A DNA stretch of 64,000 nt from Closterium sp. NIES-65 (lineage: Eukaryota > Streptophyta > Zygnematophyceae > Desmidiales > Closteriaceae): NCBI GenBank assembly GCA_948144175.1, contig CANXME010002067.1, positions 1,426,001-1,490,000 of the forward strand. Reading direction: 5' to 3'. This document shows, one piece after another, positions 846 to 64,000 of the stretch (positions within the stretch are counted from its first letter, which is position 1; every line of letters starts with the position of its first letter). The position numbers were made by a program, and so were the translations under genes. The notes below the pieces were generated by a model. That model saw only the letters and a list, made by a program, of their open reading frames with translations. It made no database searches and was not told the origin of the DNA.

Positions 846-884
846 GCGGTCCTGATGAAAGCGAGACGTTTTGACGAACGAAGT

Positions 885-6514: not shown

Positions 6515-6522
6515 GGTTCGGC

Positions 6523-12531: not shown

Positions 12532-12649
12532 CAGACCATACCACACCAAAGCTGCCGAGCCGAAACCAAGTAACCGATCAGAGTCCTTCGGTACCAGTCA
12601 GATTTCACATTTGTTGTTCCCCGAACTCCTGCTCTGTCCTGACTTTCTG

Positions 12650-13375: not shown

Positions 13376-13396
13376 TACCATCCTTAAAGTGTTGCG

Positions 13397-13522: not shown

Positions 13523-13732
13523 CACCCCCATAGGCAAAGTGGGGGAGAACAAAGGGTCACAAGACCAGTCAAACAAAGCAAAGCAAAGCTCAAGGTGGAT
13601 CACAAAGTCACCACACATTCCGAGCACAAGTTCAAGGCCAGACGGCCAGTTCACATGCAGGAGCACACATATATATGTTAAAGGCTAAACAAGCAAGAGC
13701 AGGAGTATATATATGTGACAGTACAAGCAAGG

Positions 13733-35095: not shown

Positions 35096-35134
35096 CGGTC
35101 CTGATGAAAGCGAGACGTTTTGACGAACGAAGTG

Positions 35135-36686: not shown

Positions 36687-37057
36687 GAAGCACTGCTGCC
36701 TCGCCTTCTGCTGCCTCGCCTTCTGCTGCCTCGCCTTCTGCTGCCTCGCCTTCTGCTGCCTCGCCTTCTGCTGCCTCACCTTCCGTTGCCTCACCTTCCG
36801 CTGCCTCACCTTCCGCTGCCTCACCTTCTCCTCACCTTCTGCTGCCTCACCTTCTGCTGCCTCACCTTCTGCTGCCTCACCTTCTGCTGCCTCACCTTCT
36901 GCTGCCTCGCCTTCTGCTGCCTCACCTTCTGCTGCCTCACCTTCTGCTGCCTCACCTTCTGCTGCCTCACCTTCTGCTGCCTCACCTTCTGCTGCCTCAC
37001 CTTTTGCTGCCTCACCTTCAGCTGCCTCGCCTTCTGCTGCCTCACCTTCTGCTGCCC
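36687..37057. repeat. 15-bp tandem array, CTGCTGCCTCACCTT unit (block B)
   Basis: Counterpart of 2455-2825. At least two substitutions differ between blocks inside this array (CTCGCC for CTCACC, and CCGCTG for CCACTG), so the copies are not simply the same reads placed twice without change. The CATGTGTCGGCCTCC array follows at about 37337-37432. Confidence 0.9.
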
Positions 37058-37859
37058 CCCTCTTCTCTCCCATGCCTACTCGCCTGCTGCCTCCACCCAC
37101 TCGCAAATGACTGCCTCCACCCACTCGCAAATGACTGCCTCCACCCACTCGCAAATGACTGCCTCTACTGCAGCTTCTGCCTAGGTGAGGAATAGGGTGA
37201 GAAAGTGTTTCAAATATCACCACCTACTCCGCTTCTCTCACCTCCGCTTTGGCATGTCGCCCTGCCTGCCATCAGCTGAAGAGCCATCCACAACCTCATA
37301 CCCATGGCTTATGCTGCCTCAACCTGCCCCCCCCTCTCACCCATGTGTCGGCCTCCCATGTGTCGGCCTCCCATGTGTCGGCCTCCCATGTGTCGGCCTC
37401 CCATGTGTCAGCCTTCCACGTGTCAGCCTCCCATACCTCCCTCCTGCCCGCCTCCACCACACTCCTTGCTGACCGCCTTCACCGCCAGCACTGCTGCTGC
37501 ATCTCACGAGCATGCAATCGTTAGCAAAGTGACATCTGGGTGGGGCAAGAAGATGGTCCTGTGATATCCTGTTAAGCTTCTCTTACTTCTGCCACCCCTG
37601 CCGCTACCAGCTAAGAGTCTGACATCTCATAACGAGACCTCGTTTTCGCAAAGACATCAACCCTAGGGCAGAATACGGTAACCTCGTCCGACTTGCCACC
37701 TTTTCAATCCATGGTTGGTTGAATATTGGGCGTGACGACACCATCAAGCCAGTGCAAATGCCAACTAAAAGACACCATGGCCCGAGCAGGTGCGTGCCTG
37801 ACCGCATAGGGTGTGTGCCTGACATAGACTGTGTTGCTAACCTTTAGGTGTGGTTCGGC

Positions 37860-40747
37860 CTAAGTTGGAATATACGCTACTTTCATTTTGCGTTTTGCGT
37901 TTATACGCTTGTCGAACTCGTACGTTGCGTATAGTTTGAAAATTCGCCGAGTTGAATTTCGGGCAGACCGAAAAAAAAAAACAAAATTTCAATCTGAAGC
38001 TCGCGACGTGGCGATCTCAATTCCGAGTCGCAGATGTCGCGAAATGAACTCAAATTTTGAATTTCGAGCACCAAACCTCATCAACCCCTCCCCTCAAACG
38101 TTTCACACCCCTTTGAACCACAGCATTCCACCATCCCCTCCAAGTGCTACTTTACTGGTTGGGAGCTCAACCCAACCCAATCTCCCAGGCATAAAGAGAG
38201 GCGTTTGTTCCCTCGACATTCATTCTCTCGCTTCCTAGCTATGTCCTTTCCCAAGCCACCATGGCTTCCACTCCTACAGCAACCACTTCTCGTACGCCAC
38301 CCTCAGAGTCTCCTGGTAGTTCCGCTGGTGGGACCTCTTCTAGTACGTCTTTGGTCTGCATGGACAGCAAGCACGCAGTCTACCGTCACTTCAAGGTGCC
38401 GGCCAATAGCGTTGGCGAGAACGGCACCAAGGTGTGTGCCTACTGCAACTTCACGTTTGTTGGCGGGGTTCACCGTTGCGCGCAACATATCACCAGCTGG
38501 AACGGCATGCGCCGTCGCGAAGTGCATCTCTGCACTGCAGCGCCGAAGACTGCACGTGACGCCGTGAAGGCGCTTTACGAGTCTAAGTTGAAGGCCCATG
38601 AAGCGAAGCGTGCGGCTGAAATTGCGGCGGTCCGCGCAGTCAACGGTAGAGGTTCGGACAAGAAGAAGAGTCGGATGACCGACTTCTACGGCGACGACGC
38701 CGTGTGCGCGAACCAAGCTGCGGACGAGGCCATAAGTCTCTTCTTTGCCGCTCTTCATGTGCCGGAGCATCACGCGGACCACCCACTGTGGCGGAATGTG
38801 GTCTCTAGCATCCACCGCGCGGGGCCGAATTACGTCGCGCTGAAGAGACGCTACATCGGTGGCGTCGGTCTTGCAAAGTGTCGCCAGCGCATTGAGGCGG
38901 CGCTCGCTCCTATCTCAGCAAGCTGGCGCCGTGACGGTGTCACCGTGGCAAGCGACATGTTCTCCGACAAGGCCGACCGCCCGCAAGCCAACGTGCTCCT
39001 CATCAACGATAGCGGTGCGGTGTTTGTGGAGTCGATCGACACGAAGATGGAGATGAAGACCGGGGGCTACATCGCGGGCATCTTGCGGCCCATCATCGAA
39101 AAGGTCGGCCACGAGAATGTCGTCGCCTTGTGTTTTGACGGCGGCTCCAACTACGCGGCGGCATGCAGGGTGTTGATGCGCGAGTATCCCCACATTGAAC
39201 ACATCCCTTGCACGACCCATGTCCTCGATCTCCTGATGGAGGACATCGGGAAAAAGGGATGGGCGAAGGACATCGTCACGCGCGGGGACACCCTCATCTC
39301 GTTCGTCCGCAACCACCACTTCACCCGGGGATACATGCGGAGTCCGCTCGTGAACGGCGGCAAGGGGAAACAGGTTCTCAAGCCAGCGGGAACCCGATTC
39401 GGCACCAACTACATCGCCATCAACCGCCTCTGTGAAGTGCGCGCCGGCCTGACGCAGATGGTCCTCAGCGATGAGTGGGCCGAGTGGACTGCGGCTGTAG
39501 ACAGGGCTGGGGCAGACACATTCAAAGACAACATCCTCGATGCCGCGTGGTGGACGCGCGCCGAGTTCTTCGCTAAGCTGATGAGGCTGCCATTCGTCGT
39601 CATGTGCAAGACTGACTCGGATTCGAAGGGCATGATGGGTCGTCTCTACGACCTCATGCTCCAGCTCACCGAGGACATCCGCGACTTCCTCGACGAGCAT
39701 GCGGACGGGGTCCTGACAAGCGACGAGGTGGGGGATATTCGGGAGATCGTGCAGGACCGCTGGGACAACGGGCTGGCGTGCAACCTGCACGTGATTGGCC
39801 GCATCCTCTACCCCACCAACCAGGAAGAGTGCATTTTCCGCACCGACCTGGAGTGCACGAGGGTCTTCAAGCAGTACGTCTCCAAGCACCATGGTGACAA
39901 GACGGTCACCAGGAAGGACGGGGTCGAGCGCCGCGCCTCTCTCGTCATCCAGGAAGGCCTCAATGCCTTCATGAACCTCCAAGGCAGCTTCGGCATGCCC
40001 GACGCTATTGCCGACCGCCAGGCAGTGAAGGAGGGCAAGATGACGGCGGTGGACTGGTGGACATGGCACGGGACCGATCATCCTGAGCTCACCACCATGG
40101 CTTGCCGCGCCATCACGCAGCCGGTGTCTGCGTCTCCATGTGAGCGTAACTGGGCGAAGTTTGATGCAGTGCATACGGCAAGGAGGAACCGCCTCGGCGC
40201 GGTGAAGCTTCGTGACCTGGTGTATGTGACGCACAATTGGCAGGTGGTGCACAACTGGCACAAGGCCCTTGAAGGGTTGAGGGTGGTGAAGGGAAACATC
40301 GAGGACCCCCCCACTCCGGCTGGCTATAATGTCCCGGAGGAGGTGGAGGAATCTGAGGAGGGGGAGGATGATGTGATGGCAGATGAGTACTAGTGGATGG
40401 AAGGCTCCATGCATGAGCGGCAGGCGGGGGATGGAGGGTGGACCTGAGTAGAGTAGGGGATGGGGGGGTAGTAGCATGATTAAGGTGGGTGAAGTTGTAG
40501 CGGCAAATTAGTTTTAAGGGTTTTTTTTTTTCCTGTAACTTTCATATTAATACAAAGGGGATGGGGGTTACAACACCCCCCCATCCCCACCTCTTACCCC
40601 AAAAATCTGCCCGGGGAAAAGTTTTTTCCTGCCCGGGCAAGCGGATTCTTGTGCGTACCAGACCCCTCAGGGACTGCGGTTTGCGCATATACTCTAGCAT
40701 TTATACAGCAAGCGTACAAAACGCTAAACGCGTATATTCCAACTTAG
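37860..40747 (+). mobile_element. Complete hAT DNA transposon (block B copy)
   Basis: 2888 bp. The 18-bp TIRs are identical to block A (37860-37877, 40730-40747), as is the GGTTCGGC target duplication (37852-37859, 40748-40755). One extra T in a poly-T run explains the length difference. A shared target duplication means it was copied with the block, not inserted independently. Confidence 0.95.
38261..40393 (+). CDS. hAT-family transposase with BED zinc finger (block B)
   Basis: An intact 710-codon frame, matching the gene at 4029-6161 except Val for Ala at about residue 148 (GCG to GTG at 38702-38704, a CpG to TpG change). The substitution lies in the linker between the BED finger and the catalytic core, so activity need not be affected. 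It has the same strong start context and acidic tail. Confidence 0.95.
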   Translation: MASTPTATTSRTPPSESPGSSAGGTSSSTSLVCMDSKHAVYRHFKVPANSVGENGTKVCAYCNFTFVGGVHRCAQHITSWNGMRRREVHLCTAAPKTARDAVKALYESKLKAHEAKRAAEIAAVRAVNGRGSDKKKSRMTDFYGDDAVCANQAADEAISLFFAALHVPEHHADHPLWRNVVSSIHRAGPNYVALKRRYIGGVGLAKCRQRIEAALAPISASWRRDGVTVASDMFSDKADRPQANVLLINDSGAVFVESIDTKMEMKTGGYIAGILRPIIEKVGHENVVALCFDGGSNYAAACRVLMREYPHIEHIPCTTHVLDLLMEDIGKKGWAKDIVTRGDTLISFVRNHHFTRGYMRSPLVNGGKGKQVLKPAGTRFGTNYIAINRLCEVRAGLTQMVLSDEWAEWTAAVDRAGADTFKDNILDAAWWTRAEFFAKLMRLPFVVMCKTDSDSKGMMGRLYDLMLQLTEDIRDFLDEHADGVLTSDEVGDIREIVQDRWDNGLACNLHVIGRILYPTNQEECIFRTDLECTRVFKQYVSKHHGDKTVTRKDGVERRASLVIQEGLNAFMNLQGSFGMPDAIADRQAVKEGKMTAVDWWTWHGTDHPELTTMACRAITQPVSASPCERNWAKFDAVHTARRNRLGAVKLRDLVYVTHNWQVVHNWHKALEGLRVVKGNIEDPPTPAGYNVPEEVEESEEGEDDVMADEY

Positions 40748-40755
40748 GGTTCGGC

Positions 40756-42816
40756 TGGGCCCTCAATAAATACATAATTCACCAGTCTTGCCTGCATGGG
40801 ACCTCCTGTTGGCTTAACAGCTCTACGTCTGACCTGTATCAGCACCATATATGCCTCGCCTATCCTCTATGCCTGACCTAACCTAACCTGTATGCCCCAC
40901 CTGGTATGTATGCCCGACCTGACAAGTATGTTTGACCTAGGGTGTGTGTCTGACTTAAGGTGCATTCCTGACGAAATATATTGTGTGCCTTTATCCACTT
41001 GCTGCTGCCTCAAGGTGTGCTTGAACTCGCATGTGAGCATGGCATGTGCTCGCCCCTCAACATGCTTCACGTGCTTGAAAGACCCGCCTCCACGACTGCC
41101 GCTGCTGGACTGGAACGGTGTCGCATCCACAGCTGCTGCCTCGCTCCTCCCTCCCACGCCTCTCCTGCCTGCCTCCACCCACTCGCCGCTGACTGGTTTT
41201 GCCACCACGACTGCTGCTGGCTGCAGCCTATGGCTCTGCCATGCCGCCCCGCTGTGTGTCCAGGCGATGAGATGGGCTCTCACGGCTAGTGAAGAGCGGG
41301 TGCTGCTGATGTGGGAAAGGGATGGGAGTGGGGAGAGAGAGGGGGCGGCGAAGGAGGTGCTGTGCCATGCTGTGTGCCGCAGTGATGAGCTGTGCTCCTC
41401 ATGGTTAGTTCAGGGCAAGTGCTGTTGGTGTGGGAAGGAAAAAGGGTAGGGAGAGGGTGGGGAGTGCAAAAGAGGTGCTCTGCCATGCCGTCCCGCTGTG
41501 TGTCGCAGCGATAAGTTGGGCACCTCACGATGAGTTCATGGTAGGTGCTGTTGGCGCGGGAAGGGAAGGGGTGGGGAGAGAGTGGGGAGGGGGAAAGATG
41601 TGCCGTGCCATGCTGTGTGTCGCAGCGATAGGTTGGGCACCTCACGATGCGTTCATGGTAGGTGCTGTTGGCGCGGGAAGGGAAGGCGAGCTGGAAGGAA
41701 AGGTAAAAGAAAGGGGCGGAGTTCAGACGAGGAGGAGGGAGGGGAGGGGGGGTGGGGGGTGTTGATGAAAGCTGATGGTGCATACTAAAATGTAGCATTG
41801 AAACATTCCGATTCGGCAGCACACTGGGACCAGCAACGCCACTTTGACCATGGATAGGAGACGGCGAAAGGGAGGGATGGAGAACGGCGACTAATATTCA
41901 CTTTCCGACGTGGCCGCGGTGGTGCCATTTCATCCAACTCGGCTTCGCTCACCTCTACAAAATGTGTGACACCACAGCCCATGCCCAAAACTGGATTTTC
42001 CCGATCTTTGCGCACAGACTATTGAACAAGCAATGACTAGGGTTACTTGAAACATTGTTTAGGAGGGTACGCATTGCTGAAACATGGATCACTTTTCAAA
42101 AACTATGTCCCCCCTTCCCCATTGTATCCCACGACGTCTAGCAGTTCGAATCGAACTAGCCCCGCACGTGCCAATTTCGATTCACACAGCGAATCCATTT
42201 CGGTTCTGCTGGATGTCGGGTGGTTTCCTTGCGCAACACCAAGCCCACAGAATTTGATTGAACCTGAGATCTAAAATCGCATCTGCAGAAATTCCCTGGT
42301 GTTATAGCAAACGCACCTATAGCGAGTCATGAACCAGATAAGATGTTGCTGACGCGTCAGAAACAGTGTCACTCTGAAGGTGTGGTGTCACAAATGGATG
42401 TGACAGCGCGGATTGGTTTAGACATCCTCGCGAATAGAAACTCAGACCAATAAGGGTTTCCGTTTTTTGCCTAGCTTCGTTGTGGCCTGTCTGAACCCTC
42501 TAGCAGTGGTACATTCCAACCCACACGAGATTTTGACGATCTCGCAAACCCAGTCGCCAACATTTGGTGTGCGAGATGCTTTTCCCTCCCTCAGCTAGTC
42601 AAAATCCACCCATAGCTCAATATGCGTTGTTTTTCTCTTGCACGATCTCATTCTCCATTCTCTTCACTTGCTTAGCTAGCACGGTGCTGTGGCTGCTGGT
42701 GTCTATCCGTTCCTCCCTAATGGCCCCGTTTCTAACATATGTGCCTATTTCCTGTTCTTACACCTTCTCTTTAGCAGGATATCGAAAGTCCGGGGTGGTG
42801 GACAATTAGTGCTGTG
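40756..42816. other. Block B spacer with ~120-bp tandem units
   Basis: Counterpart of 6523-8583. Four diverged units start near 41241, 41364, 41481 and 41607, followed by complex promoter-like sequence. No gene is supported. Confidence 0.6.
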
Positions 42817-43048
42817 ATGGCTGCACGAAACCCGTTATTACGCTACCTTCTCACACCCTACGCGTGCCGGTCCATTCTTGTGAGTTTCTGTTCCAGGTAC
42901 GTAAGCATTGGCTAATGCGACCTTGTGAGCACCTCTTTCTTTGCAGAATGCTAGGGCTCGTCACAAGGCTCTACATCAGCGATTTCCGAGACTATCGTCA
43001 AGCGTCCGTGAATATTATTGGCCATTTAACAGTTTTATTTTTCGATAA
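42817..43048 (+). CDS. Possible small two-exon gene (block B)
   Basis: Exact counterpart of 8584-8815: exon 1 42817-42879, intron 42880-42946, exon 2 42947-43048. No difference from block A was noticed, so duplication gives no evolutionary test of coding. Function unknown. The following 43049-44773 has nothing recognisable. Confidence 0.35.
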
Positions 43049-44773
43049 GTTGAATCGCCAATCTATCGCCGAGTTTATCACGGTTTTTGGAGGTGCTTCC
43101 TGCGGTGTAGGGCGGAGCTTATAAACGGCATACATGATCGGTAGGTTCATGTCGCAGGAGTCATTTTTCTAACTTATCTCTGCTGTGTGTGTTGGTGCTC
43201 GGTGCAGAACCCGCTTCCGGTCCGAAATAAGCTGCTCGTATCGGGATGTTACAAATATTGTGTGTGGATTTGTTGTGCGGGGGTATTTATCTAGGATGTT
43301 AGGTTTTTTCTTCTTTTTGTAAATTGGTAAGGCAGGCTAGGTCTTGTGACAATGGCTATCATCGTTGTAATGTTGAGTTCAAATATAAGACATGAGGAAC
43401 CATGAAAAGTGTTAGCAGAAACATAATTCATGAGTGTCACGATTGGATATTGGCACCCAATTGGCAGGCTGTAATATGTGATTTCCGGTTTATTTTTTTG
43501 CGCTTGTATTTTCTCCAATTGAGAGCATGGAATGTGATCATTGATCCGCTATAGTAACTTATTGTAAATGTTCTCCTGGTTGCTATAGTGAGGATGAGCA
43601 ATGTTTGCGATGTGCTGAAGCACTCGTTGCCGAGCCTACTCAAGTTTGCACATGCACACGTTGTTATGATTCCTCGAACATACCTCAACTGTTAAGCACT
43701 CATCATGATAAACCACAAGCATTGATGGCAGGGGAAAACATCAAACAATCCCCGTGAAATGTTTTTTCATTCCTTTTCCTTCTGACATTTTGTAGAGACC
43801 TCCGCATTTCGCACTTCAATAGTCGCGCCTCCCGTTAGGTTTCCCGCGTTATCCGCTTAGAGATTCCCCATGCCGGTTTCAGCCCTCGGGAGGGAAACAA
43901 AACAAACGGCATGACGCGCGTTACACCAAGCTCACGCGCACGAGAGCACAAAGAATCGGAATCCCAGGCGAGGAGCAAGGAGGATGGGACTCCTGGCAAT
44001 GCGAGGTTACGTGCTCCGCTCTAGGCGATGACGCGCATTCTGACTGCTTCTACAGCGCATCGGTGCGCCGCGGCGCGTGCGTGAGGCAATTTGCAGTGCT
44101 GCGAGGGAACGATGGAGTTGCGGGCTCACGCGAAAACAATGGCACGAAGGCATCGCTTCGCCATCACGCTCCTCGCATGCGGCTTCTAACCTTGCAATAA
44201 CTACATCGCATGCACGCTGAAGGCGTAGGGGTCTCGCGAAGAGAGGATCATGGGTCCCAGTGCGCGCAGCGACGTCGTTAAATCTCGCAAGCCGGCAATG
44301 CAATAAAACGGCGAACCCTTGGAGCTGTGCATGGCAACATCCTTCGCGGCGCGCTATGGGGAGTCTGGCGAGAGCGACGTTGTATTGTTAGGTTCGGGTC
44401 GCAGCGCTCGAGACACGTGTCGAATGCCTTTCGACCGTGCAGAGATTTAGCTGTTTGAGCAGTAGCACTGAGTCCAGAACTAAGGCCAGAGAGCCAGCAG
44501 ATAACTTGTCGGCAAGAAGCATTTGCGAAAGTGAACGAATCAGATTTGCATCCAGCAAGGCAAATGTGGAAACATCTTTGTAATAAAACATGCATTAACG
44601 AGAGAAGCTGGAACTTCGTTTGCGGTTACAATTTCTTGACGAAAAGAGCGCATCTTGAAACATGTTCGCGCATCCTCTTTCATAAGTTCGTGCACCACGT
44701 CCCCAGCGCCTGGATTTTGCGCCAAAACCAGCAAAACCTTGCCAAAACCTCCCCGAAGCCAAACCAAAGCAGA

Positions 44774-46732
44774 GCAAGCAACATATTAGCAGAGCGGATG
44801 ACACGACCCTCCTGCTGCAGGGCAAGCAACATATTAGCAGAGCGGAGGAGGTGTTGGAGGAGTTCAAAAGCATCTCTGGCCTGGAGACGAACAAAGGAAA
44901 ATCGGTAATATTGCCGTTGGGCGCTAACCTGGGAAGGAAGGCCTGGCGCGCAGATGGGTTTCGCTGGGCCGGAGCAGAGGAAGCGGAGCGGCTTCTGGGA
45001 GTCTGGGTCACGCCGAATGGTAGCTGTCAGCCGACATGGGATAAAGCGCTGCAGAAGATCGCTGGGAAAATGTCGCTGTGGCAGCCGCAATACCTCCCCA
45101 TCAAGGCCCGCACGGCGGTGATGGATGGCTACATACTGCCGATCGCGTGGTCACAAGCTCAAGTGTACCCGCCGCCGGCGCAAACATGGGGGGTGATCAC
45201 TAAGATGACGCATAATTTTATGTCAGCGAACAAGGTTACATCTGAAAAATGTTTCCGACTCTGGAGCAAGGAGCTCCTATTTACACCGGTGCTGGAAGGA
45301 GGAGTGGGAGCAAAGAACCCGGAGACGATGCTCACCTGTTTGACCGCCAGAAGGATTGGAACGATACTCACCGAAACAAATCAGCTGAAGCGGGAGCTGA
45401 TGCGCCAGGCAGCCGACTTACCACGGGGTCTGGAGACATTCATGGCACATGAGAAACTTCTGAAAACCTGGGAGGGGAAGAGTCAGAGGTGGAAATTGGC
45501 ATGCGCGAACTTCATGCGTTCGCCGTTAGTGACGACCACGGAAGCCCGCGAAACAACAGAGCTACTGCTGGAGAGAATTACGTTCAACAGGCACATCCTC
45601 CTGAAAGGAACCACGCCTGTGGGGGGGCAGTTAGCAGCGAAGCGGCTCCTTGGCGTTCGGCTGGGAGATCTCATCACCAGAGATGCGGAAGGGCGTGGGA
45701 CGCTGAAAAGCATTGAAACCCTTGAGAGAGAGCTGCGGGGGAGGGACTCGGCAAGCCTTGCACTCAAGGCCTTTGCAGCAGCGCCTGAAGAGTGGAGGAA
45801 CCAGCTTGTCTCTGTCGTGCTTCCCAACGTGGAATTTGCGGAAGAGTTTGATGTGGGGAGAAGGGGTCCCCTCCAGCTCCGGAGGAAATTGCTGGCGGAA
45901 GGAGGTGTGGCTCCACTGCGCGCGCTCAGAAGGTATTGGAAACATGGTGACAGCGGGGAAATTAGGCGGAAGAAGTGGGCGAGCCGTTGGGGTGGCAGCA
46001 TCGACTGGAAGCGGGCAGTGCAGATCCGGGAATCTCTGGTCACCCCGAGTCGTCCGAGGGACGTTCTGCTGCGCATACACTGCCTTAACTTACAAGTTGG
46101 GGAGAGGCTGGAGTTTCTCAGCAACGAACCAGCCTGCCCGCACTGCAACGAGTTTGAAACTCTGGAACACTGTTTTTTGGCTTGCCCAAGAATTCAAGGG
46201 GTGGTGTCGGCGGTTAAAAAGGCTTTACGAGTGATCAACCCGTCCAGGAAAGGGGACTCGCTTGGTGATTGGCTGTTTGGGAAGGCGGGATCCCTGTCAG
46301 CCTTCCCGGAGGCATCATTGGTGGCGATCGCCCTTCATCAGCTGTGGGCGGAAAGGTGTGAAGGGGCATTCAGGGGCTGCAAGTTCCGCACGCGGAGAGT
46401 GCTGCGGAGGATTGAGTCAGCTTTCCGCATGCACGTGAATGTCTATCTGCGTGCCTCGGCGGTGAGGGTACAACGGCGGGGAAAGAGTCAGCATGCCAGG
46501 TGGCAAAAAATGACGGATCAAGAACGCAAACTTCTGGACCGTATCAGAGTGGTGGATGGCAAAGGCTGGAAATGGACCAACAGCTTCGCGGCAATATGGG
46601 GCAAACCACGCAGGCCCCGGATCCATGCTTGAGGATCGAATTTGTTTCTGAGGCGGGCCTTCCGGTCTCTCATGCACAGTTACGACTGTTTATGGGCTGT
46701 ACACTTGTCTGTTCCAGTGTATAATTCATATA

Positions 46733-46763
<31 letters not shown>
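44774..46763 (+). mobile_element. 5'-truncated LINE (block B copy)
   Basis: Counterpart of 10541-12531, with the same truncation point, the same 25-bp direct repeat at the 5' edge and a 28-A tail (46736-46763). It contains the ORF2 C-terminal fragment at 44794-46632 with the zf-RVT motif CPHCNEFETLEHC. No stop codon. Confidence 0.88.
44794..46632 (+). pseudogene. LINE ORF2 C-terminal fragment (block B)
   Basis: The same open frame as 10561-12399, starting at the ADD of the reverse transcriptase catalytic box and ending with the Trp-rich tail. It lacks the endonuclease and most of the polymerase. The predicted protein appears identical to block A. Confidence 0.88.
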
Positions 46764-46881
46764 CAGACCATACCACACCAAAGCTGCCGAGCCGAAACCA
46801 AGTAACCGATCAGAGTCCTTCGGTACCAGTCAGATTTCACATTTGTTGTTCCCCGAACTCCTGCTCTGTCCTGACTTTCTG

Positions 46882-47607
46882 CTTCACCAAATTTCTTCGG
46901 CCATTATCTCCGATACTCAAATTTGCCTGAGCACGTTCTCAGGTGTAATCACCAACAGAAAACAGTTTTGCTATATAGTAGGAAGCTTTTCTGTCTCGTA
47001 ATTATATACAGTCACTAAAAAATTGCAGCGCTTGCACAAAAGTAAATATAAAACCCGTAGCAACCCCGGATGATTTCCGGGAAGGATCAACCCTAAATAC
47101 CGAAAGCCGCCCAATATTTTGGAAAACATATTCCAACCCACTTGACAAAAAACAAATAAAACCCAATCGGAAAGGGATGCGACTCGGGAGGCATCAAACC
47201 TAAAAACAATTTCCATTCCTGTATTTAGGGTTAACCCCTCTCAAAAATGCATCCAGGTTCCCTACGGGTTTTATTTTTTTTCTACCATGCCCGAATAGTT
47301 TTCAGTAGCGTCGTCTAGTGCTTTCGGTAGCTTTCTTTAGCCGTCGGTTGCGCTACCGAGCACTACCAAGTGAATTATATGGGCTTCATTCTCTTAGTAC
47401 CTAAATTTGGGTTCTTATATCGAAGTCGGGAGGGTAAACTGGATGTTTCTGTTTTTGTCACTTCCTAATGAGTTCGACCAGTGTAAGAAATGTGACTATA
47501 AAGCGACGACCAATCAACGTTGAGAAAGTCCATGTTGATTACACCTGAGAACGCGCTCAGGCAAAATCTGAGTATCGGAAATAATGGCCAAAATTTCTTT
47601 CCGCGTG
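46882..47607. repeat. Foldback element with nested inverted repeats (block B)
   Basis: Counterpart of 12650-13375. It ends about 20 bp before the Copia-2 3' LTR. Confidence 0.6.
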
Positions 47608-47628
47608 TACCATCCTTAAAGTGTTGCG

Positions 47629-47754
47629 TGAAAAAACTGAAACGAGAATAGAATCACTACGTAAAAGTTGGGTACAAATACAACCCTAGAAAGCTGTACA
47701 CTATATGTGCTACCACACTATAGCCTACAACAGCTATGTAGTACAAATCTGACA
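47629..47754 (-). repeat. Copia-2 3' LTR (block B)
   Basis: Same as 13397-13522. On the plus strand it runs TGAAAAAACTG to ATCTGACA and is preceded by TTGCG. Confidence 0.92.
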
Positions 47755-47964
47755 CACCCCCATAGGCAAAGTGGGGGAGAACAAAGGGTCACAAGACCAG
47801 TCAAACAAAGCAAAGCAAAGCTCAAGGTGGATCACAAAGTCACCACACATTCCGAGCACAAGTTCAAGGCCAGACGGCCAGTTCACATGCAGGAGCACAC
47901 ATATATATGTTAAAGGCTAAACAAGCAAGAGCAGGAGTATATATATGTGACAGTACAAGCAAGG

Positions 47965-50229
47965 TCAAGAAGTGAGCAAGTGAGGGAAGACAGGCACAAG
48001 ACCAAGCTGAATACAGAAGCGCTGATGATCACAAGGCGCAAGAGCCTTAGTTAAGATATCAGCAGTGTTGGCCTCAGAGGCCACGTACGCAAGTCGCAAC
48101 TGACCACGCTGCTGCAGCTCACGAGCAAGAAAGTAGCGGAGAGCAATGTGCTTCGTTCTGTGCTCCAGGCGCTGCTCCCGACACAAGGCCAGCATGGCCT
48201 TGTTGTCTACGTACAGCACTGGAGGAGAACGAGGCGGCTCTCCGAGGTCAGTCAACAGGTAGGTGAGCCAGCGGAGCTCCTGTGCAGCCATGGCTCTGGC
48301 GTAGATCTCAGCCTCACAACTGGAGCTGAGAACAGAAGACGAGCGAGTAGCCCGCCACGAAACAGAGCCGGAACCAAGGCTGAAGGTGTAACCCTGTGAG
48401 GACTGCTGCGTAGCTTGGTCGTCAGCCCAAGAAGCGTCTGCGTGCCCTGTGAGGACCACTGGACTCTGCCCTCCAAGCACTAGCCCCATGCCCGACGTAG
48501 TGCACAAGTAGCGCAACACCCTCTTCGCTGCAGCCATGTGCTCTGGTCTGTGTCTCCCAGGAGCAACATAGCGTGCAAGAATGCTAAGAGGGTATGCAAG
48601 GTCAGGTCATGTGCAGGTCATCAGGTACATGAGGCAGCCAACAAGCTCTGGGTACGGGCCACTCGACTCTACGGACTCATCTGAAGACAGAGCTGAGAGC
48701 AAGTGGCGAGTAGACAGAGGAGTGGCCTGAGGCGAGGAGTACGTGAAGCGGAAGCGCTGAAGGACCTGCTGCACCATGTGTGACAAAGTCAGGGTAATGG
48801 TGCGGCGTGCTCTGTCCAGGGTGATCTGCAAGCCAAGGTAGCTGCGCAGTTCACCCAGGTCTGTGCACGTGTGTCTGTTCTGCAACTCGGACTTCACGTG
48901 GGCGAGTCTAGCAGTGTCAGCAGTGGCAAAGACCAAGTCGTCGACGTACACGAGGATGTAGAACGGCGGCAAAGAGGTGTGGGTGCGTAGAAACAGCGCC
49001 GGGTCGGCAGTAGAGGGAGCAAACCCAAGAGCCGCAAGCGTAGTCCTCAGTGTGTCGTGCCACTGACGGGGCGCCTGGCGGAGAATGTAGACTGGCCGTC
49101 GGAGGTTCCACTGGGTGCCAGGAGGAAAAGTCCCAGTGAAGCCAGGTGGACGGCGCAGCCAGATCTCCTCGTGAAGGCTACCCTTCAAGAAAGCAGTGCT
49201 GAAGTTAAGGGAGTGAAGCTCGTAGTCACGCTGAGCGGCTATGTGCAGCAGCACCCAAAGAGTGGTCATCTTCGGGGTGGGAGAGAAGGTCTGAAAGTAG
49301 TCAACTCCCTGCCGCTGACTGAAGCCACGAGCCAAGTGACGCGCCTTGAAGACAGGTCGAGAACCTGGCGGCCGCTTCACCCTGAAGATCCACATGCCAC
49401 TGACGATGTTCGCCCCAGGTGGGGGAACCGCGTCAACGTAGGTGACTGTGGACTTCCAAGAAGCCATCTCTGCATCCATAGCTGCCTGCCACTAAGAGGA
49501 GTAGGGACCCTCTACGGCCTCCGCGTAAGAGTGCGGAGTCGGGATGTGAAGTGCATCCGGGTCTCCCTCAGGGGTAAGCAGCACGGACACGAGATGGGGT
49601 GAAGCAGCAGCTAGACACTGGAACTCGTCCTGCCTGTCCTCAAGGACGTCCGTGCCAAGAGCACACTCACCCCCGACGGACGGAGGACAGACAGACGTAG
49701 ACTCAGCGACAAGACTAGCAGCGTAGTCGAGACGATAGCGAGCAGCAAAGTCGACGAGCTCAGCAACAAGAGCAGACGCAGCAGTGGACTCAAAAGAGGG
49801 GTCAGTGACGACAATAGCAAGGAGACGCGTGACAGCATGACTGGCAGCAAGAAGAGAGTCCGACTCTGGGTCGGCAAGTGCGGGAAGAGAGGACTCAGGA
49901 GGAGAAGGCAAAGGGGCACGCAGAGTAGCAGTGGATGGACGCAGAGACATTCGATGCGTGCCAGGGACAGGAGGAGGACGCTGACGCGAACCGCGACTAC
50001 TAGTGCGAGCAGCACGAACAGGCGACGCAGGACGAGACGCAGGCTCACGACACTCAGCAAGACCTCCAGTAGGACCAGTGTAGGGAGAAGGAGCAGGCAA
50101 TGGGGAGGCCGGCAGTAACTGTGACTGTGACTGGACAGGCGGTGGACACTCTAAGGGAGGAGGAAGACCAAGAACCTGCTGAAGGAGCGGAACGAAGTAC
50201 GGTCGAGGCCGCGCGACGACTCCAGACAC
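47965..50229 (-). pseudogene. Copia-2 RT and RNase H (block B)
   Basis: Linker and RT N-terminus lie at 49492-50229 (ends YSS-TAG), the RT core at 48607-49479 (YVDD intact, motif A LNFSTAFL lacking the usual Asp, ends CT-TGA), and RNase H at 47965-48537 (DASWADD, CEAEIYA, YVDNKA, and a TKAL tail). The stops sit in frame between conserved blocks, as expected for CAG-to-TAG and CGA-to-TGA changes. It would encode cDNA synthesis and RNA removal if intact. Confidence 0.93.
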
Positions 50230-53623: not shown

Positions 53624-54486
53624 GACAGCAGTAGACTAGCAGCAGTAACTGTAGGACAGGGGCAGTGCAGTGACTGAAGCGCTGCTCTCACCAGACAGGG
53701 CGGTTCGGGCAGCTCAGCAGCACAGCAGCTCGGCAACATGGCGGCTCGGGCGACTCGGACGGCTCAGAAGCAACTGCAGCTCTACGGCACCAGCGGCTCG
53801 GCTCCTCGGCGGCTCAGGCGGCTCGGGCGGCTCGGGCGGCTCGGGCGGAACGGGCGGCTCGGGCTGCTTAGCGGTGCGGGCGGCTCGGAGGCGTAGGGCG
53901 GCAGGGTCGTTGGTAGGGCGGCGGGGCCGCAAGGTAGATGGCGGGGCCGCAGCGAGAGAGGCGGCGGGGCCGTAGCGAGAGGGGCGGCGGGGCCGCAACG
54001 AAGGGCGGCGGGGCCGCAAGGTAGGCGGCGGGGCCGTAGTGAGAGAGGCGGCAGGGCCACAGCGAAGGGCGGCGGGGCCGCAGCGAAGGGTGGCGGGGCC
54101 GCAGTGAAGGGCGGCGGGGCCGCAGTGAAGGGCGGCGGGGCAGCAGCGATGGGCGGCGGGGCCGCAAGTTAGGCGGCGGGGCCGAAGCGAGAGAGGCGGT
54201 GGGGCCGTAGCGAAGGGCGGCGGGGCCGCAGAGAAGGGCGGCGGGGCCGCAGCGAAGGGCGGCGGGGCCGCAGCGAAGGGTGGCGGGGCCGCAGCGAAGG
54301 GCGGCGGGGCCGAAGAGATGGGCGGCGGGGCCGTAGTGAAGGGCGGCGGGGCCGCAGCGAAGGGCGGCGGTGTCAGTAGATCTGCACTGTGGATGCCCGA
54401 TTGATCCTGGAGAGGGTTACAGGCGCGTTCGCCTGGGGGGTTATGGGCGCACTAACTCGCTACTGAAACAAGCCCTTTTATCCCAA

Positions 54487-54545
54487 TGGTCTAGTGGTTG
54501 GGATTCTGAGATGGTATCCAGAGCGAAGGTCTCGGGTTCGAATCC
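54487..54545 (+). promoter_or_regulatory. tRNA-type A and B boxes, TRIM unit 1
   Basis: A box TGGTCTAGTGG (54487-54497, inside the LTR end) and B box GGTTCGAATCC (54535-54545, inside the internal domain) both match Pol III internal promoter consensus; starts are 48 bp apart. The primer-binding site lies between them. A TTTT run just upstream of each A box (54476, 54685, 54919) could terminate transcription from the preceding unit. Transcription is inferred, not shown. Confidence 0.55.
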
Positions 54546-54695
54546 CGGTGTATGCACTTCGGGCATCCCAGTGCGGGGGGGTGTCAGAGGTCCACTGGTG
54601 ATCCCCGATCGATCCTAGGGAAGGGTTACAGGCACATTTGCCTGGGGGGTTATGGGCGCACTGACCCGCTACTGAAACAAGCCCTTTTATCCCAA

Positions 54696-54750
54696 TGGTC
54701 TAGTGGTTGGGATTCTGACATGGTATCAGAGCGGTCTCGGGTTCGATTCC
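54696..54750 (+). promoter_or_regulatory. tRNA-type A and B boxes, TRIM unit 2
   Basis: A box TGGTCTAGTGG at 54696-54706 and B box GGTTCGATTCC at 54740-54750, 44 bp apart, the spacing of a real tRNA gene. The T-arm can fold (TCGGG, TTCGATT, CCCGG). No acceptor stem pairs, so it is not a functional tRNA gene. Part of the B box could instead derive from extended complementarity to the primer tRNA. Confidence 0.55.
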
Positions 54751-55212
54751 CGGTGTATGCACATGTAGGCCGTTGCCGCTGTGCTTAGTCCTGGACCTCC
54801 CAGTGTGGGGGGGTGTCAGTAGATCTGCACTGTGGATGCCCGATTGATCCTGGAGAGGGTTACAGGCGCGTTCGCCTGGGGGGTTATGGGCGCACTAACT
54901 CGCTACTGAAACAAGCCCTTTTATCCCAATGGTCTAGTGGTTGGGATTCTGAGAGGCGGGTCCGCAGCGAAGGGCGGCGGGGCCGGGACAGGGCGGGGCC
55001 GGGGCCGTAGGGCTAGGCGACGGGGCCGCTAGGGCGATAGGGTTGCTAGGGTGATGGGGCCGCTAGGGCGGCGCGACGCAGTCGCTAGGGCGGCTCGACG
55101 AGATGAGAGAGAGGAGCGCGACTCGGGCTGAGCACGCTACGGGCAGGAAAAAAAAAGTTTCGACTTGGTGGGCCCTAGGCACAGTTCCCACTACGGAACC
55201 TGCTCGATACCA

Positions 55213-57134: not shown

Positions 57135-57985
57135 CTACACAGCTGCAGCAACCACTTGAAAATCTTCACCCGCTTCAGGCGCCAGCGAAATTGGGGTCTT
57201 CGTGGATGGTGAAGCGCACGCGATCTTTCCCACCATCGCACACAAAGCTTGGCCCGTGCCATTCGTGCTCGTGGTCGTTGTCGCGTTTGCAACCGCGTTT
57301 GAGTTGCCACCATCAGCAGCATTCGCGCGCTGTTGTCCACGGGCATTGTTCGTGGGATGATTCGGGGAGTCGTTGTACTTGTTTTCGCGCCGAGATTGTC
57401 TGGCATTCGACCGTTCGCGTGGGCCCTCGTGCTCATCGCCTGAATCACCACCGACACGATCCGGATACACGTAGGGGAGATGATCCGGGTCGCCACAGAC
57501 AAAGCAGTAGCGCTTGCGCTGGCCACGACCGCGATCATCCTTCTTGCTCGGCTTCCCGCAATTGTCCTCGTTTTTTCTCCCCTTTCCACCTCCACGAAAT
57601 TTTTGTCAGTAGATCTGCACTGTGGATGCCCGTTTCGAGGTTCGTTAGGCGCTGCTCCAGCTGTCCGAGGTACAAGTCGTCCGTGGCCTTGTACGTCTTC
57701 ATGATGAACTGCCACGCTTGGAATCCCGCGTCCTCCCGTATACGGCACGGTTTCAAGGCGACTTGAACCACTGGAGAGCAGCACCGCGAAATCACCATGA
57801 ACGTCAGCAGTTGTGCAGAGTGGAACTAAGAGATGCGCTCGTAGTCGTCGTCTGGTGGAGGTACCACGGAGCCATCCACGAATTTCTTCAGTTGCGCAAT
57901 TTCGAGCTGTGGCTCAATCGATTCCACACACGTTGTCAGGTCGTGGCTGTTAACACGAATGGAGTGTTGGTCCCGCCCTCGCTTG
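57135..57985 (-). pseudogene. Copia-4 gag fragment with internal deletion
   Basis: On the minus strand, ESIEPQLEIAQLKKFVDG and LTFMVISRCCSPVVQVAL closely resemble Copia-3 gag (ESIEPQLEVAGLKGFADG, LTFMVISRCCSPVVQLAL). About 200 codons present in Copia-3 are then missing, and the frame resumes before a zinc knuckle, CFVCGDPDHLPYVY, in which the last Cys is replaced by Tyr. After ISLAPEAGEDFQVVAAAV it stops where protease would begin. TAG near 57829 is a further break. The 29 bases at the deletion point match a TRIM LTR end. Non-functional. Confidence 0.85.
57604..57632 (+). repeat. 29-bp shard of the TRIM LTR 5' end
   Basis: Identical to the first 29 bases of the TRIM LTR (54371-54399), starting TGTCAGTAGATCTGCACTGT, then diverging. 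It sits exactly at the internal deletion of the Copia-4 gag fragment, in the orientation opposite to gag. Confidence 0.8.
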
Positions 57986-59057: not shown

Positions 59058-59270
59058 TCGAAGATGCGACCTTCAGATAGGAGCTGACTTTTGCACCTAC
59101 TAAGTCGTTCGTAGGCCGGCAGCAGTGGTAGTCCCCATGGTCGACCCCGTAGTTGATGCGGGTGTAGCGGACACCTTGGAGGCACGTTTGGCTTACGCGA
59201 GGAGACGCCACGCGAATGGCGAGTACGGGACGATCCCCCTGGTGATCGCCGAGTTGGGCATCCGGTCGCA

Positions 59271-62237
59271 GTGGGCGACGGAACACCCTTCCCGTCCTAC
59301 TTCTCCTCGACCGGTGCGCAACGAAGGTGGCGTCGACGACGAGGTCGACGGTGGTGCATGAGTCAGCGGCAGCGAAGGCACGAGGCAGAGAGGAGTGATC
59401 AAAGTCGATGGTGGTGTCGACGGAATCCAGGCGCGAGTGCAGCGGTCGACGGCGGCTGCAGGCAGCTCGCGTGCCAACGTCGCTCTCCCCTACGAAGCGG
59501 TGGAGGGCTCTCGGTGACGACACACGTGACGGCGGGCGAAATTGCACCGGCGTATGGCTACTTTAAGTTCTCGCTGGACCGGATCGCCGTCGCACCGCTG
59601 CAAGGTCGACGGGACCTCATCACCTGGAGGGAGTCGATTGAACCTCAGCTAGAGGTCGCCGGGCTAAAGGGCTTCGCCGATGGCACCGTGCCCTTTCCGC
59701 CCGAGGAGGATGTCCAGCTATGCGGGGAGTTTCGTTCTGCTCACTTGCTCACCTTCATGGTCATCTCGAGGTGCTGCTCGCCAGTGGTGCAGCTAGCGCT
59801 CAGGAGCTGTCGAGAGCGACTGGATGCTGGTCACCACGCATGGCACTTCATCTTGTCGACATACCAGGCCAGGGAGGACCTGTACATCGGACAGCTAGAG
59901 GAGAAGATGACTCACATTCGGATGGGCGAGCAGGAGTCGGCGACGGACTACTGCAACCGAGCTCGACGGATCCTAGCTGAGATAAGGATGGCGGGCGCCG
60001 AATACTCGACGATGTCCTACATCACCCACGTCCTCAAGGGCCTGCCGCGCAGCTACAACCTCATGAAGAGGTTTACGATGGTGCCCGGCACACGTGAGTC
60101 CCTCGACGAGGACTCCCTTACCAGCTACATCCTCCAGGATGAGGCGATGCAGGAGGCAGAGCAGCCCACGGAGTTCCTTCCGCAGGCAAGTTACGCTGCA
60201 CCGACGAAGCCGAATAGCCAGCGGGAGCAGCGCGGGAAGCCAGGCGGAGGTGGTAGCGGAGGTGGGCGGTTGACAAAGGACGTCGACGAGAGGAGGTCCA
60301 CGTGGGACAAGGGTCGACGAGGTGGTGGTCGACGACGGGAGTGCTGGATCTGCGGCGACCCCGACCATCTCTCCTTCGAGTGCCCCGACCGCGATGACAG
60401 CGACGAGAACAACAACAAGGAAGGCCGCGGTCGATCGGCCAGTCGTCGCCCCCGTCGAGTTGAGAAGCCACGCAAGGAGAAGCAAGCGTCAAAGAAGACG
60501 TCCTTGACAAAGGACGTCAACAGCTCCAGCGGCAAGAGCCAAGGCAAAGGGGAGGCGTCGTGCTCGATGGTCGGCGTGGTGGAGCCGACGGTCTCGCTAG
60601 CACCAGAGGTTGGCGAGGACTTCCAGGCAGTGGCAGCAGCTGTGCAGGCCAACCCGATGGCGGTGCTGCTCGACAGCGGGTGCTCCCACCACCTGATGGG
60701 GACGAAGTCGGTCTTCGTCGACATGGGGCCGAGCGACGGAGTGAAGCACGTGCGTGGGTTCAACGGGGCATTACAGTTTGTCAAGGGTCATGGAACTGTC
60801 GCTCTGCAAGGGGAGGCTGGGAAGCGGGTGCTCATCCCAGACGTGCTCTACGTTCCGGGTGTTCAGGCGAACGTGCTGTCAGCTGGCCAACTGAAGGAGA
60901 GCGGAGTGCAGCTGCAGGGTGATGGCGATGAGATACTGCTCGTCGCTACGACCGGGGAGGTGCTTGGTCGAGCACGCTACACCGGACGAGTCCTGTGCAC
61001 CGACCTTCGCCCCTGCTCGACGCGGTTGCCATCGACCGAGGTGGTGGCTCTGCGGACGATCGTTTCGGCGACAAAGGCGACCCCTGATTGGCTGCATGCG
61101 AGGCTCGCACATGTCGGTGTCGATACGATCAAGAGCTCGGCAAAACATGGAGTTGCTGTTGGGCTCGACATCACGCCGTCGACCGGAGCAGACCCGCCAT
61201 GTGTCTCGTGCGTCGAAGGAAAGCTGGCACGGCACACCTTCTCTGCCAAGGGCTCGGACGCAGCGGAGGCGCTGGCTGTCGTGCACATTGACTTGTGCGG
61301 ACCATTTCGAGTGGCTGCCAAGGATGGCAGCTTGTACTTCCTGCTGTTAAAGGATCGCCATACTCGATTTGTATGGGCAATGCCGGTCGCCAAGAAGAGC
61401 GATGTGCTGCGGGAGTTCCAGCGGTGGCTAGTGCTGGTGGAACGGCAGACGAAGAAGTCGGTCCTATCGCTTCGCTCTGATCGAGGAGGGGAGTTCCTCG
61501 GGAAGGCATTCACCGACTTCATCGACGGGAAGGGCATCGTCCATGACCTGACGTGCCCCTACTCTCCGCAACAGAATGGCATGGCTGAGCGGGAGATGCG
61601 CACGGTCGTCGAGTCCGTGCGGACGATGTTGCTGCACATGGGCGTGCAGCACCATTGGTGGCACCTTGCTCTACGACAAGCTGTCTGGGTGCGCAACTGC
61701 TTGGAGCGGTCGACGACGCCGCCGGGGACGACTCCGTACCAGCTGCTGACCAGGCAGAAGCCCGACCTTACGCTGGCGCGGGTGTGGGGCTGCATGGTGC
61801 AGTTCATGGTTCCCGAGCAGCAACGAGGTGGGAAGCTGGCGCCGAAGGCTCGCTGGGGACTTCACCTGGGTGTGTCGCCAGAGAGCAAGGGCTGGGAAGT
61901 GCTCGATCTGACCGACAACAAGGTGGTCACGTCGGTCGAGGTGATCTTCTACGAGACGCTGTCGCTGGAGGTGTGGAAGGCGAAGTATGGGCCGGCGTCG
62001 AAGCGGACGCAGGCGCACCCGCCAACAGATACATCGACAGTGACGGTTCCGTTGCTCGCCGAAGTCGACGGACCCGGTGATGAGGATGTTGTGGAGGTTC
62101 TTTCCCCTCCCCCTGTCTTTGCTCCTCCGTTCCGCGATGCAGATCGGCTTGGGTCGGCACCTGTGTCGCCCACCGTCGATGAGGGGAGCCTTGAGGCGTC
62201 GCCTGTGGCGCCGGCCCATGGCATCGCCGGCGGTTGA
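59271..62237 (+). CDS. Copia-3 gag-protease-integrase polyprotein
   Basis: This is an open frame of 988 codons. The first ~80 residues are Arg-rich and probably out of frame; the real gag may start at ATG 59138 with a frameshift before 59520. Recognisable gag begins at VTAGEIAPAYGYFKFSLDRI. Domains: capsid-like gag (to about residue 320); CCHC knuckle CWICGDPDHLSFEC (about 358); protease LLDSGCSHH (about 466); GAG-pre-integrase (WLHARLAHVG, CVSCVEGKLARH); integrase with catalytic Asp in VHIDLCGPF and LRSDRGGEF and Glu in QNGMAERE; then the integrase C-terminus (GGKLAPKARWGLHLGV). The frame ends at TGA 62235-62237, short of RT. Catalytic residues look intact. Confidence 0.92.
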   Translation: MGDGTPFPSYFSSTGAQRRWRRRRGRRWCMSQRQRRHEAERSDQSRWWCRRNPGASAAVDGGCRQLACQRRSPLRSGGGLSVTTHVTAGEIAPAYGYFKFSLDRIAVAPLQGRRDLITWRESIEPQLEVAGLKGFADGTVPFPPEEDVQLCGEFRSAHLLTFMVISRCCSPVVQLALRSCRERLDAGHHAWHFILSTYQAREDLYIGQLEEKMTHIRMGEQESATDYCNRARRILAEIRMAGAEYSTMSYITHVLKGLPRSYNLMKRFTMVPGTRESLDEDSLTSYILQDEAMQEAEQPTEFLPQASYAAPTKPNSQREQRGKPGGGGSGGGRLTKDVDERRSTWDKGRRGGGRRRECWICGDPDHLSFECPDRDDSDENNNKEGRGRSASRRPRRVEKPRKEKQASKKTSLTKDVNSSSGKSQGKGEASCSMVGVVEPTVSLAPEVGEDFQAVAAAVQANPMAVLLDSGCSHHLMGTKSVFVDMGPSDGVKHVRGFNGALQFVKGHGTVALQGEAGKRVLIPDVLYVPGVQANVLSAGQLKESGVQLQGDGDEILLVATTGEVLGRARYTGRVLCTDLRPCSTRLPSTEVVALRTIVSATKATPDWLHARLAHVGVDTIKSSAKHGVAVGLDITPSTGADPPCVSCVEGKLARHTFSAKGSDAAEALAVVHIDLCGPFRVAAKDGSLYFLLLKDRHTRFVWAMPVAKKSDVLREFQRWLVLVERQTKKSVLSLRSDRGGEFLGKAFTDFIDGKGIVHDLTCPYSPQQNGMAEREMRTVVESVRTMLLHMGVQHHWWHLALRQAVWVRNCLERSTTPPGTTPYQLLTRQKPDLTLARVWGCMVQFMVPEQQRGGKLAPKARWGLHLGVSPESKGWEVLDLTDNKVVTSVEVIFYETLSLEVWKAKYGPASKRTQAHPPTDTSTVTVPLLAEVDGPGDEDVVEVLSPPPVFAPPFRDADRLGSAPVSPTVDEGSLEASPVAPAHGIAGG

Positions 62238-64000
62238 CAGGGTGCCGAGCTCGTCGACCAAGATGCCAAGCCGACGACGACAGGGGAGCACCAGACAGGG
62301 GAGCCGGTCGAACAGGAGGCAAAAGCAGGGGTACACTCGACAGGGGAGCAGCAGCCGGAGCGGTCAACAGGACAGTTGTCAAAGGCAGCAGCAGACGAAC
62401 GGCCGGTCGAAGGGTCGAAGCAGCCGGTCGATGACGCTCTCGCTGATGAGAAAGGGGAGCAGTCGCGGATGAGGAGTCCACCGACAGCGACGTGATGGAA
62501 GTGCCGATCACGAAGCCTGAGCTGCGACGCTCAAATCGAGCTCGACGGCCGCCAGAGCGGTTGAGCTTCCACGCATGCCTACCGCCAGCTGCCTTCACCA
62601 CGGTGTACGACAAGGTCGACGACGACCTGCTATACGATGATGCCGAGGAGGATGAAGATCTGCCGGAGCTCGACCCCGTTGTGCATGCTGACCCCGAACA
62701 CTGCTGGGACATCGCCACGATGACGGTGAAAGAGGCACTGGCGAGCTGGAAGGGCGAGGCGGTGAAGGCCGCCATGGAAGAAGAAATCCGTAGCCTCATC
62801 GCTATGGGGACTTGGGAGCTGGTCGAACGCCCACGCGGGGTGAACATCATGAAGAACCGGTGGGTGCTGACGACCAAGTACCGCATTGACGACACCGTCG
62901 AGCACGAGAAGGCGAGGCTAGTCGTGAAGGGATTCACGCAGGTGTACGGCGCCGACTACGATGAGACGTACTCACCGGTGAGCAGCTATGTCACATTGAC
63001 GATCTTCCTCAGCATCGTTGCCGTCCTCGATCTCAACCTGATGTAGCTCGACATGAAGAACGCTTTCCTGCAGAGCAAGCTTGATAGGGTGCTCTACATG
63101 CATCAGCCGTACTACTTTAACGACGGGACCGGCCGGGTGTGTAAGCTGCTGAAGAGCCTCTATGGGCTAAAGCAGTCGCCGCTGCTGTGGTACAGGGCTC
63201 TCGACGGTGTGCTGCTGGGCGCTGGCTGGAAGAAGAGCCAGGTCGACGAGGCGCTCTACTTCAAGGCCAGCGATGAGAGAGTGACCTGCTGGGTGCTGGT
63301 CTATGTCGACGACCTGCTGGCCGCCAGCAGCAGCACCACGATGCTGAAGGAGCTGCTGGAGGCCGCCTTCGAGCTACGTGAGATCTCGCCGGTGGTGAAG
63401 TACCTTGGGCTGGAGATCGTGCGCGACAGGCCAGCCAGGAAGTTGTGGCTGCACCAGCAGGGCTATGCTGACAAGCTGCGCAGGCGCTTCATCGACGAGG
63501 AACAGGGCGGTCGAGTCCCGAAGACGCCGGTCTCAGTCGACGCCTACGCTCAGCTGACGTTCGACGAGGAGGAGGCTCAAGAGCGCGAAGAGGAGGAGTA
63601 CCGGCAGAAGGTCGGCTCGCTGCAGTTCGCGGCGACGACAACGAGGCCGGACATTGCGTTCGCCTGCAGCAAGCTGGGGAGCGGCCTCACGGTGAGGACC
63701 AACCAGCATTGGCGTGAGGTCGACCGTTGCCTCGCCTTCCTCGCCGACACCCGCGACACCGCCCTGGAGTTCGGCGGTGGACCAAAGTCGTTGGAACTGA
63801 TCAGCTACGTCCATGCCGACGACGCGGGCGACAAGCAGAACCGGACAAGCACGGGAGGCTACGTGTTCCTCTACGGAGGGGCCGCCGTCTCCTGGTCGAG
63901 CTCGCGCATCAAGTGCGCGACATTATCATCGACCGGGTCGGAGTACGTGGCGGCCACGGATGCCGGCAAGGAGGGGCGTCGACTTCGCTTCCTCCTTGCG
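62238..64000 (+). pseudogene. Copia-3 RT and RNase H (broken, runs off the window)
   Basis: After TGA at 62235 the frame continues as a Glu/Gln-rich linker. A frameshift near 62470 leads to 62492-63046, with the RT start (WVLTTKYRIDD, LVVKGFTQ). TAG at 63044-63046 interrupts motif A just before LDMKNAFLQ. RT then continues (LLKSLYGLKQSPLLWY, LVYVDDLLAAS) into RNase H (HADDAGDKQNRTSTGGYVFL, SSTGSEYVAA) to the window edge. Copia-1 has CAG where this TAG lies, so the stop is a recent lesion. The 3' LTR is outside. Confidence 0.93.

Follow-up and report, generated by a model that had tools for sequence, protein, structure and literature searches.

The 64-kb window, by which we mean the whole stretch of Closterium DNA that was analysed, contains a 15.7-kb direct duplication (positions 1-15678 and 34251-49910, 99.8% identical and 34 kb apart), which is either a segmental duplication or an assembly artefact. 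A hAT-type transposase gene at 4011-6158 (DUF659 and hAT dimerisation domain) has a second copy at 38195-40393 in the duplication. The array at 15706-21600 (5.9 kb) consists of about 392 copies of a 15-bp unit and is open in several frames. For the leucine-rich-repeat gene at 27252-29360 the 20 best relatives are all from Closterium, the top one from NIES-53 at 69% identity, and weaker matches include plant resistance proteins. Copia-type genes (RVT_2) lie at 14378-15259, 30628-32925 and 59157-63998. The last of these also has integrase and gag domains, and its primer binding site (PBS), TGGTGCGGTGAGC near 59040 (read by eye), seemingly differs from that of the element described below.

The element occupies 584 bp (54371-54954) and is built of three LTRs (141, 139 and 141 bp) around internal domains of 70 and 93 bp. 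Read on the plus strand, LTR1 (54371-54511, 141 bp, subfamily a, TGTCAG...CTGAGA) contains an outer TTTT at 54476-54479 and an A box, TGGTCTAGTGG, at 54487-54497. It is followed by PBS1 (54512-54524), which is of the initiator-methionine (iMet) type with one extra C, by a B box, GGTTCGAATCC, within internal domain 1 (I1) at 54535-54545, and by a polypurine tract (PPT) in the form of a G run at 54575-54581. The inner LTR2 (54582-54720, 139 bp, subfamily b, TGTCAG...CTGACA) contains the inner TTTT (54685-54688) and the second A box (54696-54706), and behind it stand PBS2, TGGTATCAGAGC, at 54721-54732, a B box, GGTTCGATTCC, at 54740-54750 and the second G-run PPT at 54807-54813. LTR3 (54814-54954, 141 bp, ending in CTGAGA) has a TTTT at 54919-54922 and an A box at 54930-54940, with no B box behind it. 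LTR1 and LTR3 are identical at 141 of 141 bp, and LTR2 departs from them at 19 of 142 columns, of which 16 fall in its first half. The first 29 bases of LTR1 and LTR3, counted from the TG end, recur exactly at 57604-57632 inside a minus-strand open frame without a Pfam match.

On both strands of the window, the A box TGGTCTAGTGG is found only at 54487, 54696 and 54930 and the B box GGTTCGANTCC only at 54535 and 54740. The A-to-B distances are 48 and 44, and the two A/B pairs at tRNA-like spacing compare with 0.005 pairs per shuffled window (200 dinucleotide shuffles). The A box lies inside the LTR, the B box inside the internal domain and the PBS in between. Within the element, TTTT occurs at 54476, 54685 and 54919 and at no other site. 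An earlier note on this DNA had drawn the outer boundaries at 54371 and 54954, which the GGCGG on either side (54366-54370 and 54955-54959) shows to be correct to the base. The coordinates also bear out the three LTR-like copies that it described, its internal domains of 70 and 93 bp, its exact boxes spaced 44-48 bp across the LTR/internal junction and, with seven Gs directly before TGTCAG at the close of each internal domain (at LTR2 and LTR3), its polypurine tracts and TG ends. As for the initiator-Met primer site that it named, TGGTATCAGAGC is exact once in the window, at 54721, and the first copy at 54512 has the additional C.

The insertion itself can be followed at the window site, since the element lies in register within a 21-bp minisatellite. 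The joined flanks are back in the minisatellite register only after loss of exactly 5 bp (8 mismatches in 36 positions), against 17-24 mismatches for every other length from 0 to 9 bp. An origin of the three LTRs by unequal crossing over of one insertion was rejected, as it would have left an inner LTR nearly identical to the outer ones. Outer LTRs that are identical around a diverged inner LTR are instead what reverse transcription of one RNA with two different units is expected to produce. I1 and LTR2, the first body, belong to subfamily b, whereas the second body, I2 with LTR3, is of subfamily a. This suggests that the growing strand switched from one packaged RNA to another, or that transcription read through from one copy into its neighbour.

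We searched the organism's own genome (874 Mb in 2400 contigs); scoring 40 of 1316 candidates returned 47 matches. Among these scored candidates, query bases 1 to at least 577 are matched at no fewer than 38 places, one of which is the window. The sample was selected by likeness to the window and its copies have a common descent. Exactly three LTRs are held within the stretch taken at 25 of the 37 other places fetched, a form favoured in the sample because the query was itself a three-LTR unit. Perfect 5-bp target-site duplications (TSDs) flank 22 of these 25 units, with 19 different 5-mers; L023, L026 and L045 are three-LTR units without one. TSDs are common to the members of two pairs, L024/L025 and L039/L041, which are probably duplicates. 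The 12 remaining places are longer arrays of 4 to 9 LTRs (2-kb flanks), and perfect TSDs were found for seven of them, which have 4-7 LTRs. At the partial places L058-L060 matching flanks were not found. The TSDs at 22 of 25 places indicate that the three-LTR unit itself integrates. The "dimer" of the earlier note is a dispersed mobile unit and no local accident.

With LTRs around short non-coding internal regions, a total below 1000 bp, and internal regions that open with a PBS (in 13 of 26 units PBS1 has the additional C) and close with a PPT, the element has the size and structure of a TRIM. Tested on the genome copies, this architecture holds: the TSDs are constant at 5 bp, and the outer LTRs are identical or nearly so in the window and several copies. 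The same observations bear on the idea of a tRNA-derived SINE that is simply repeated in tandem, with which the element shares its small size and a type-2 polymerase III (Pol III) promoter made of A and B boxes. A SINE differs in that the Closterium element has LTRs with TG...CA or TG...GA ends, a PBS, a G-run PPT, (nearly) identical outer repeats and constant 5-bp TSDs. For the copies examined the TSDs and LTR structure refute the SINE array, and we give it practically no weight.

The extra-C form of PBS1 reads TGGTATCCAGAGC and is present in the window (54512-54524) and in 12 fetched units. Most units with it nevertheless have TSDs, and a variant primer tRNA is possible; we count the extra C against the model presented below. 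L035 and L039/L041 are three-LTR units with perfect TSDs, yet their outer LTRs come from different subfamilies. Gene conversion or recombination may account for this mixture, which also argues against that model because plain reverse transcription does not yield it.

Copies of the element are also embedded in predicted proteins. When the open frames of the element were used as queries, 43 predicted proteins matched at E <=10 (40 at E <=1e-3), and all 43 are from Closterium, 34 from NIES-54 and nine from NIES-53. We regard these as gene models that swallowed the element; the public NIES-53 and NIES-54 proteins with translated element pieces (P0082-P0125) are likely annotation artefacts. LTR ends in the translated copies lead into a PBS and B box, or into unrelated sequence. 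In one frame, sequence compatible with a B box occupies 31 of 33 sites. The A box, some of whose sites are in inner LTRs, is exact in one frame at 17 of 26 sites and in another at four of four, a result that we count against the model presented below. The sample is biased because matches must have words in common with the query. The sequence of one protein (P0083) looks like a one-unit element, and that of another (P0088) like an LTR within a Copia RNase H gene. Under the genetic code, P0083 permits a TSD of 5 or 7 bp and P0088 one of 5 bp alone; of the lengths from 3 to 8, 5 is therefore the sole one that fits both. The minus-strand frame of the element had one weak Closterium protein match (E 4e-3). 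One exact element pattern gave no matches in viral contig and genome contig collections, and a peptide scan of the viral contig collection matched eight stretches, none confirmed as an element copy.

Rates of change were compared over 24 units, using the window unit as reference and leaving out L025 and L041. The earlier note had taken TSDs, LTR structure and A and B boxes conserved among genome copies as the points on which its reading would stand or fall, and in the copies examined all three are present. The A box of LTR1 has 0.004 changes per site and R 0.009, whereas U3 has 0.098 and the remainder of U5 0.031-0.043. The corresponding values for the A box and U3 of LTR3 are 0.016 and 0.095. 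Within I1 the B box (0.012) and the PPT side (0.017) change less than PBS1 (0.047) and the stretch from the B box to the PPT (0.056). The inner unit has a different profile: U3 0.056, R 0.057 and the A box 0.075 in LTR2, then 0.152 in PBS2 and 0.099 in the B box with its free N position counted in.

The contrast is repeated in the counts of exact motifs, with Fisher P values in which related copies are taken to be independent. An exact A box stands in 23 of 24 copies of LTR1 and nine of 24 inner LTRs (P = 2.8e-5), TTTT is present in 24 of 24 outer and 13 of 24 inner positions (P = 2.2e-4), and the PBS is exact in 20 of 24 and six of 24 (P = 1.1e-4). The B box, exact in 21 of 24 I1 domains and 17 of 24 I2 domains, differs little, which weighs against the model; among all 26 units it is found in 23 I1 and 19 I2 domains. 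No TTTT was found in any of the 52 internal domains. In 10 of 24 units the inner A box, TTTT and PBS are all lost together, mostly through common changes (TTTT to TTCT, GTGGTT to GTGACT and TGGTATC to TGGTGTC).

Placing an equal number of changes at random in LTR1 would be expected to destroy 6.3 TTTT motifs and 14.2 A boxes of 23; the observed losses are zero and one. For the inner LTR the expectation is 4.5 and 11.1 of 23, and the observed losses are 11 and 15. The 11 of 23 inner TTTT losses equal the maximum among 2000 random runs with independent changes, and the A-box losses are not in excess. The unit tree is poorly resolved (one of 21 inner branches well supported); it needs five changes, of which the strong branches force two. 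From these patterns it is clear that the promoter and terminator of the outer unit are constrained, and equally clear that constraint is relaxed in the inner unit. Active selection for loss of the inner TTTT is only suggested, and we grade it lower because the independent events are few and the copies are of common descent.

Our preferred reading, to which we assign a probability of roughly three in four, is that the element is a non-autonomous TRIM that Pol III would transcribe from a type-2 promoter (A and B box) spanning the LTR/internal border. The inner unit provides an internal control, and constraint on the outer boxes, of a kind that the A box, terminator and PBS of the inner unit lack, favours a working promoter of this type. 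It is unlikely that the element is an ordinary Pol II TRIM with an LTR end and leader of tRNA-like ancestry, its boxes being relics or being kept for RNA packaging, folding or priming. This reading would account for a tRNA cloverleaf that is not preserved and for a conserved R-U5 stretch that exceeds the A box and can form the hairpin ATCCCAA...TTGGGAT. It fits poorly with an A box and R in LTR1 that are better conserved than other parts of U5, with a B box in I1 better conserved than its neighbours, and with a TTTT, for which Pol II has no known use, that is retained in all 24 copies of LTR1.

The B box might also be no promoter element but a side effect of the leader being complementary to the primer tRNA's T arm. 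The tRNA T arm is nearly palindromic, and the B box stands directly behind an iMet-type PBS. The by-product reading is nonetheless quite improbable, given that the A-to-B spacing of 44-48 is that of tRNA genes and that the B box of I1 is exact in 21 of 24 units although variants of the PBS occur.

Under the Pol III reading, transcription would begin in the 5' LTR at the CAA about 17 bp upstream of the A box (54469-54471, with the start at 54470); a CAA triplet is reported as an initiation site of Arabidopsis tRNA genes in the available text of PMC11700998. The polymerase would pass through U5, the PBS, the B box, the PPT and U3 and would stop at the TTTT just within R of the next LTR, which would make the outer TTTT both terminator and end of R. 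The predicted RNAs are 219 or 244 nt long with a 10-nt repeat, AAGCCCTTTT, at both ends, and passage over the inner TTTT would give a 453-nt RNA over both units (54470-54922). Reverse transcription would be primed by an iMet-type tRNA. The enzymes that copy the RNA and integrate the cDNA, with duplication of 5 bp, would come from an autonomous element, probably Copia. Copia as enzyme source fits the 5-bp TSDs and the iMet-type PBS. No autonomous partner was identified in the window: no iMet-type PBS adjoins the Copia genes there and the exact PBS is found only in the element. Because the B box stands behind the PBS, the promoter is complete only where an LTR joins an internal domain. The 3' LTR and solo LTRs hold half of it and, with no B box behind them, would be silent. 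The three-LTR form would unite subfamilies a and b and spread as a unit, with the inner A box, terminator and PBS decayed in many copies.

The tRNA resemblance is uneven. The half that contains the A box is identical to a 5' fragment of tRNA-Glu at 19 of 20 positions. Against the Pol III model count a score of 15.3 bits for the Rfam tRNA model on the element (cut-off 29), the absence of any tRNA in the window with ARAGORN at default settings, and a start that would place TTTT within the first ten transcribed bases. A functional tRNA was rejected: ARAGORN produced only forced cloverleafs at a 50% threshold, and the Rfam match is below threshold. A hairpin resembling an anticodon arm can be drawn at the LTR/PBS junction; it is absent from the minimum-energy fold of a longer piece and is suggestive only.

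TRIMs of Pol III type, tRNA-like TRIM LTRs and tandem TRIM arrays are already known, and the split promoter is the variation on them. Kojima (2024) defined Helenus, TRIMs with tRNA-like LTRs, together with TRIMp3 for Pol III TRIMs; Helenus has 5-bp TSDs in fungi and plants, and its use of Pol III was inferred, not shown (PMC10886601). The sole plant family in that paper is from Selaginella, with an LTR of 120 bp and an internal domain of 85 bp, and no algal member is reported (PMC10886601). Like Helenus, the Closterium element is a TRIM of a few hundred base pairs with tRNA-like A and B boxes, a PBS, a PPT and 5-bp TSDs. The tRNA-like part of Helenus, A and B boxes together, is described as lying within the LTR (PMC10886601), whereas in Closterium the A half is in the LTR, the B half is in the internal domain and the PBS is between them. 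The earlier note knew of no described family like this; TRIMs with tRNA-like LTRs had in fact been published, but they have their tRNA-like part in the LTR.

Cassandra, as described in the available text of PMC7215508, is likewise a TRIM with a Pol III promoter; it has the PBS TGGTATCAGAGC and a short repeat at the RNA ends in common with the element, and it forms short arrays of about three LTRs (PMC7215508; PMC10886601). It differs in having a 5S-type promoter that, according to the same text, is complete within each LTR (PMC7215508). We found no 5S sequence in the window at the Rfam gathering threshold and none in the element at E <=10. The available text of Gao (2016) describes plant L3I2 TRIM arrays with 5-bp TSDs, L3I2 being the commonest form in maize (63 of 93; PMC4717578), and the three-LTR form and 5-bp flanks of the Closterium element are of this kind. 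Its main text contains neither "polymerase III" nor "tRNA", and the available text does not mention decay of the inner unit (PMC4717578). Among the matches listed in a search of the open-access literature, we found no tRNA-type promoter split over the LTR/internal border around the PBS, no TRIM with a tRNA-type promoter in a zygnematophyte alga, and no TRIM whose inner unit has decayed at promoter, terminator and primer site.

As to origin, we tentatively suggest, at somewhat less than even odds, that a tRNA-type Pol III unit gained a PBS in the place of the anticodon arm, with the LTR border cutting through its promoter. A second-order element of two units would then have arisen, its inner terminator, A box and PBS switched off and Pol III reading through. 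If this is true, each full copy has one complete promoter, at the 5' end, and the 3' and solo LTRs are silent. Inert 3' and solo LTRs are a prediction of the split promoter that sets the family apart from Cassandra and Helenus.

Whether tRNA-type TRIMs are truly Pol III elements is an open question, and their Pol III nature cannot be concluded without experimental validation (PMC10886601). The Closterium family offers an internal control on this question, in that the 5' A box, the first B box and the terminator are constrained and a second copy of them about 200 bp away largely is not. It also provides a three-LTR array that acts as a mobile unit. In a streptophyte alga near the land plants, a tiny parasitic element with retrovirus-like copying often moves as a linked pair.
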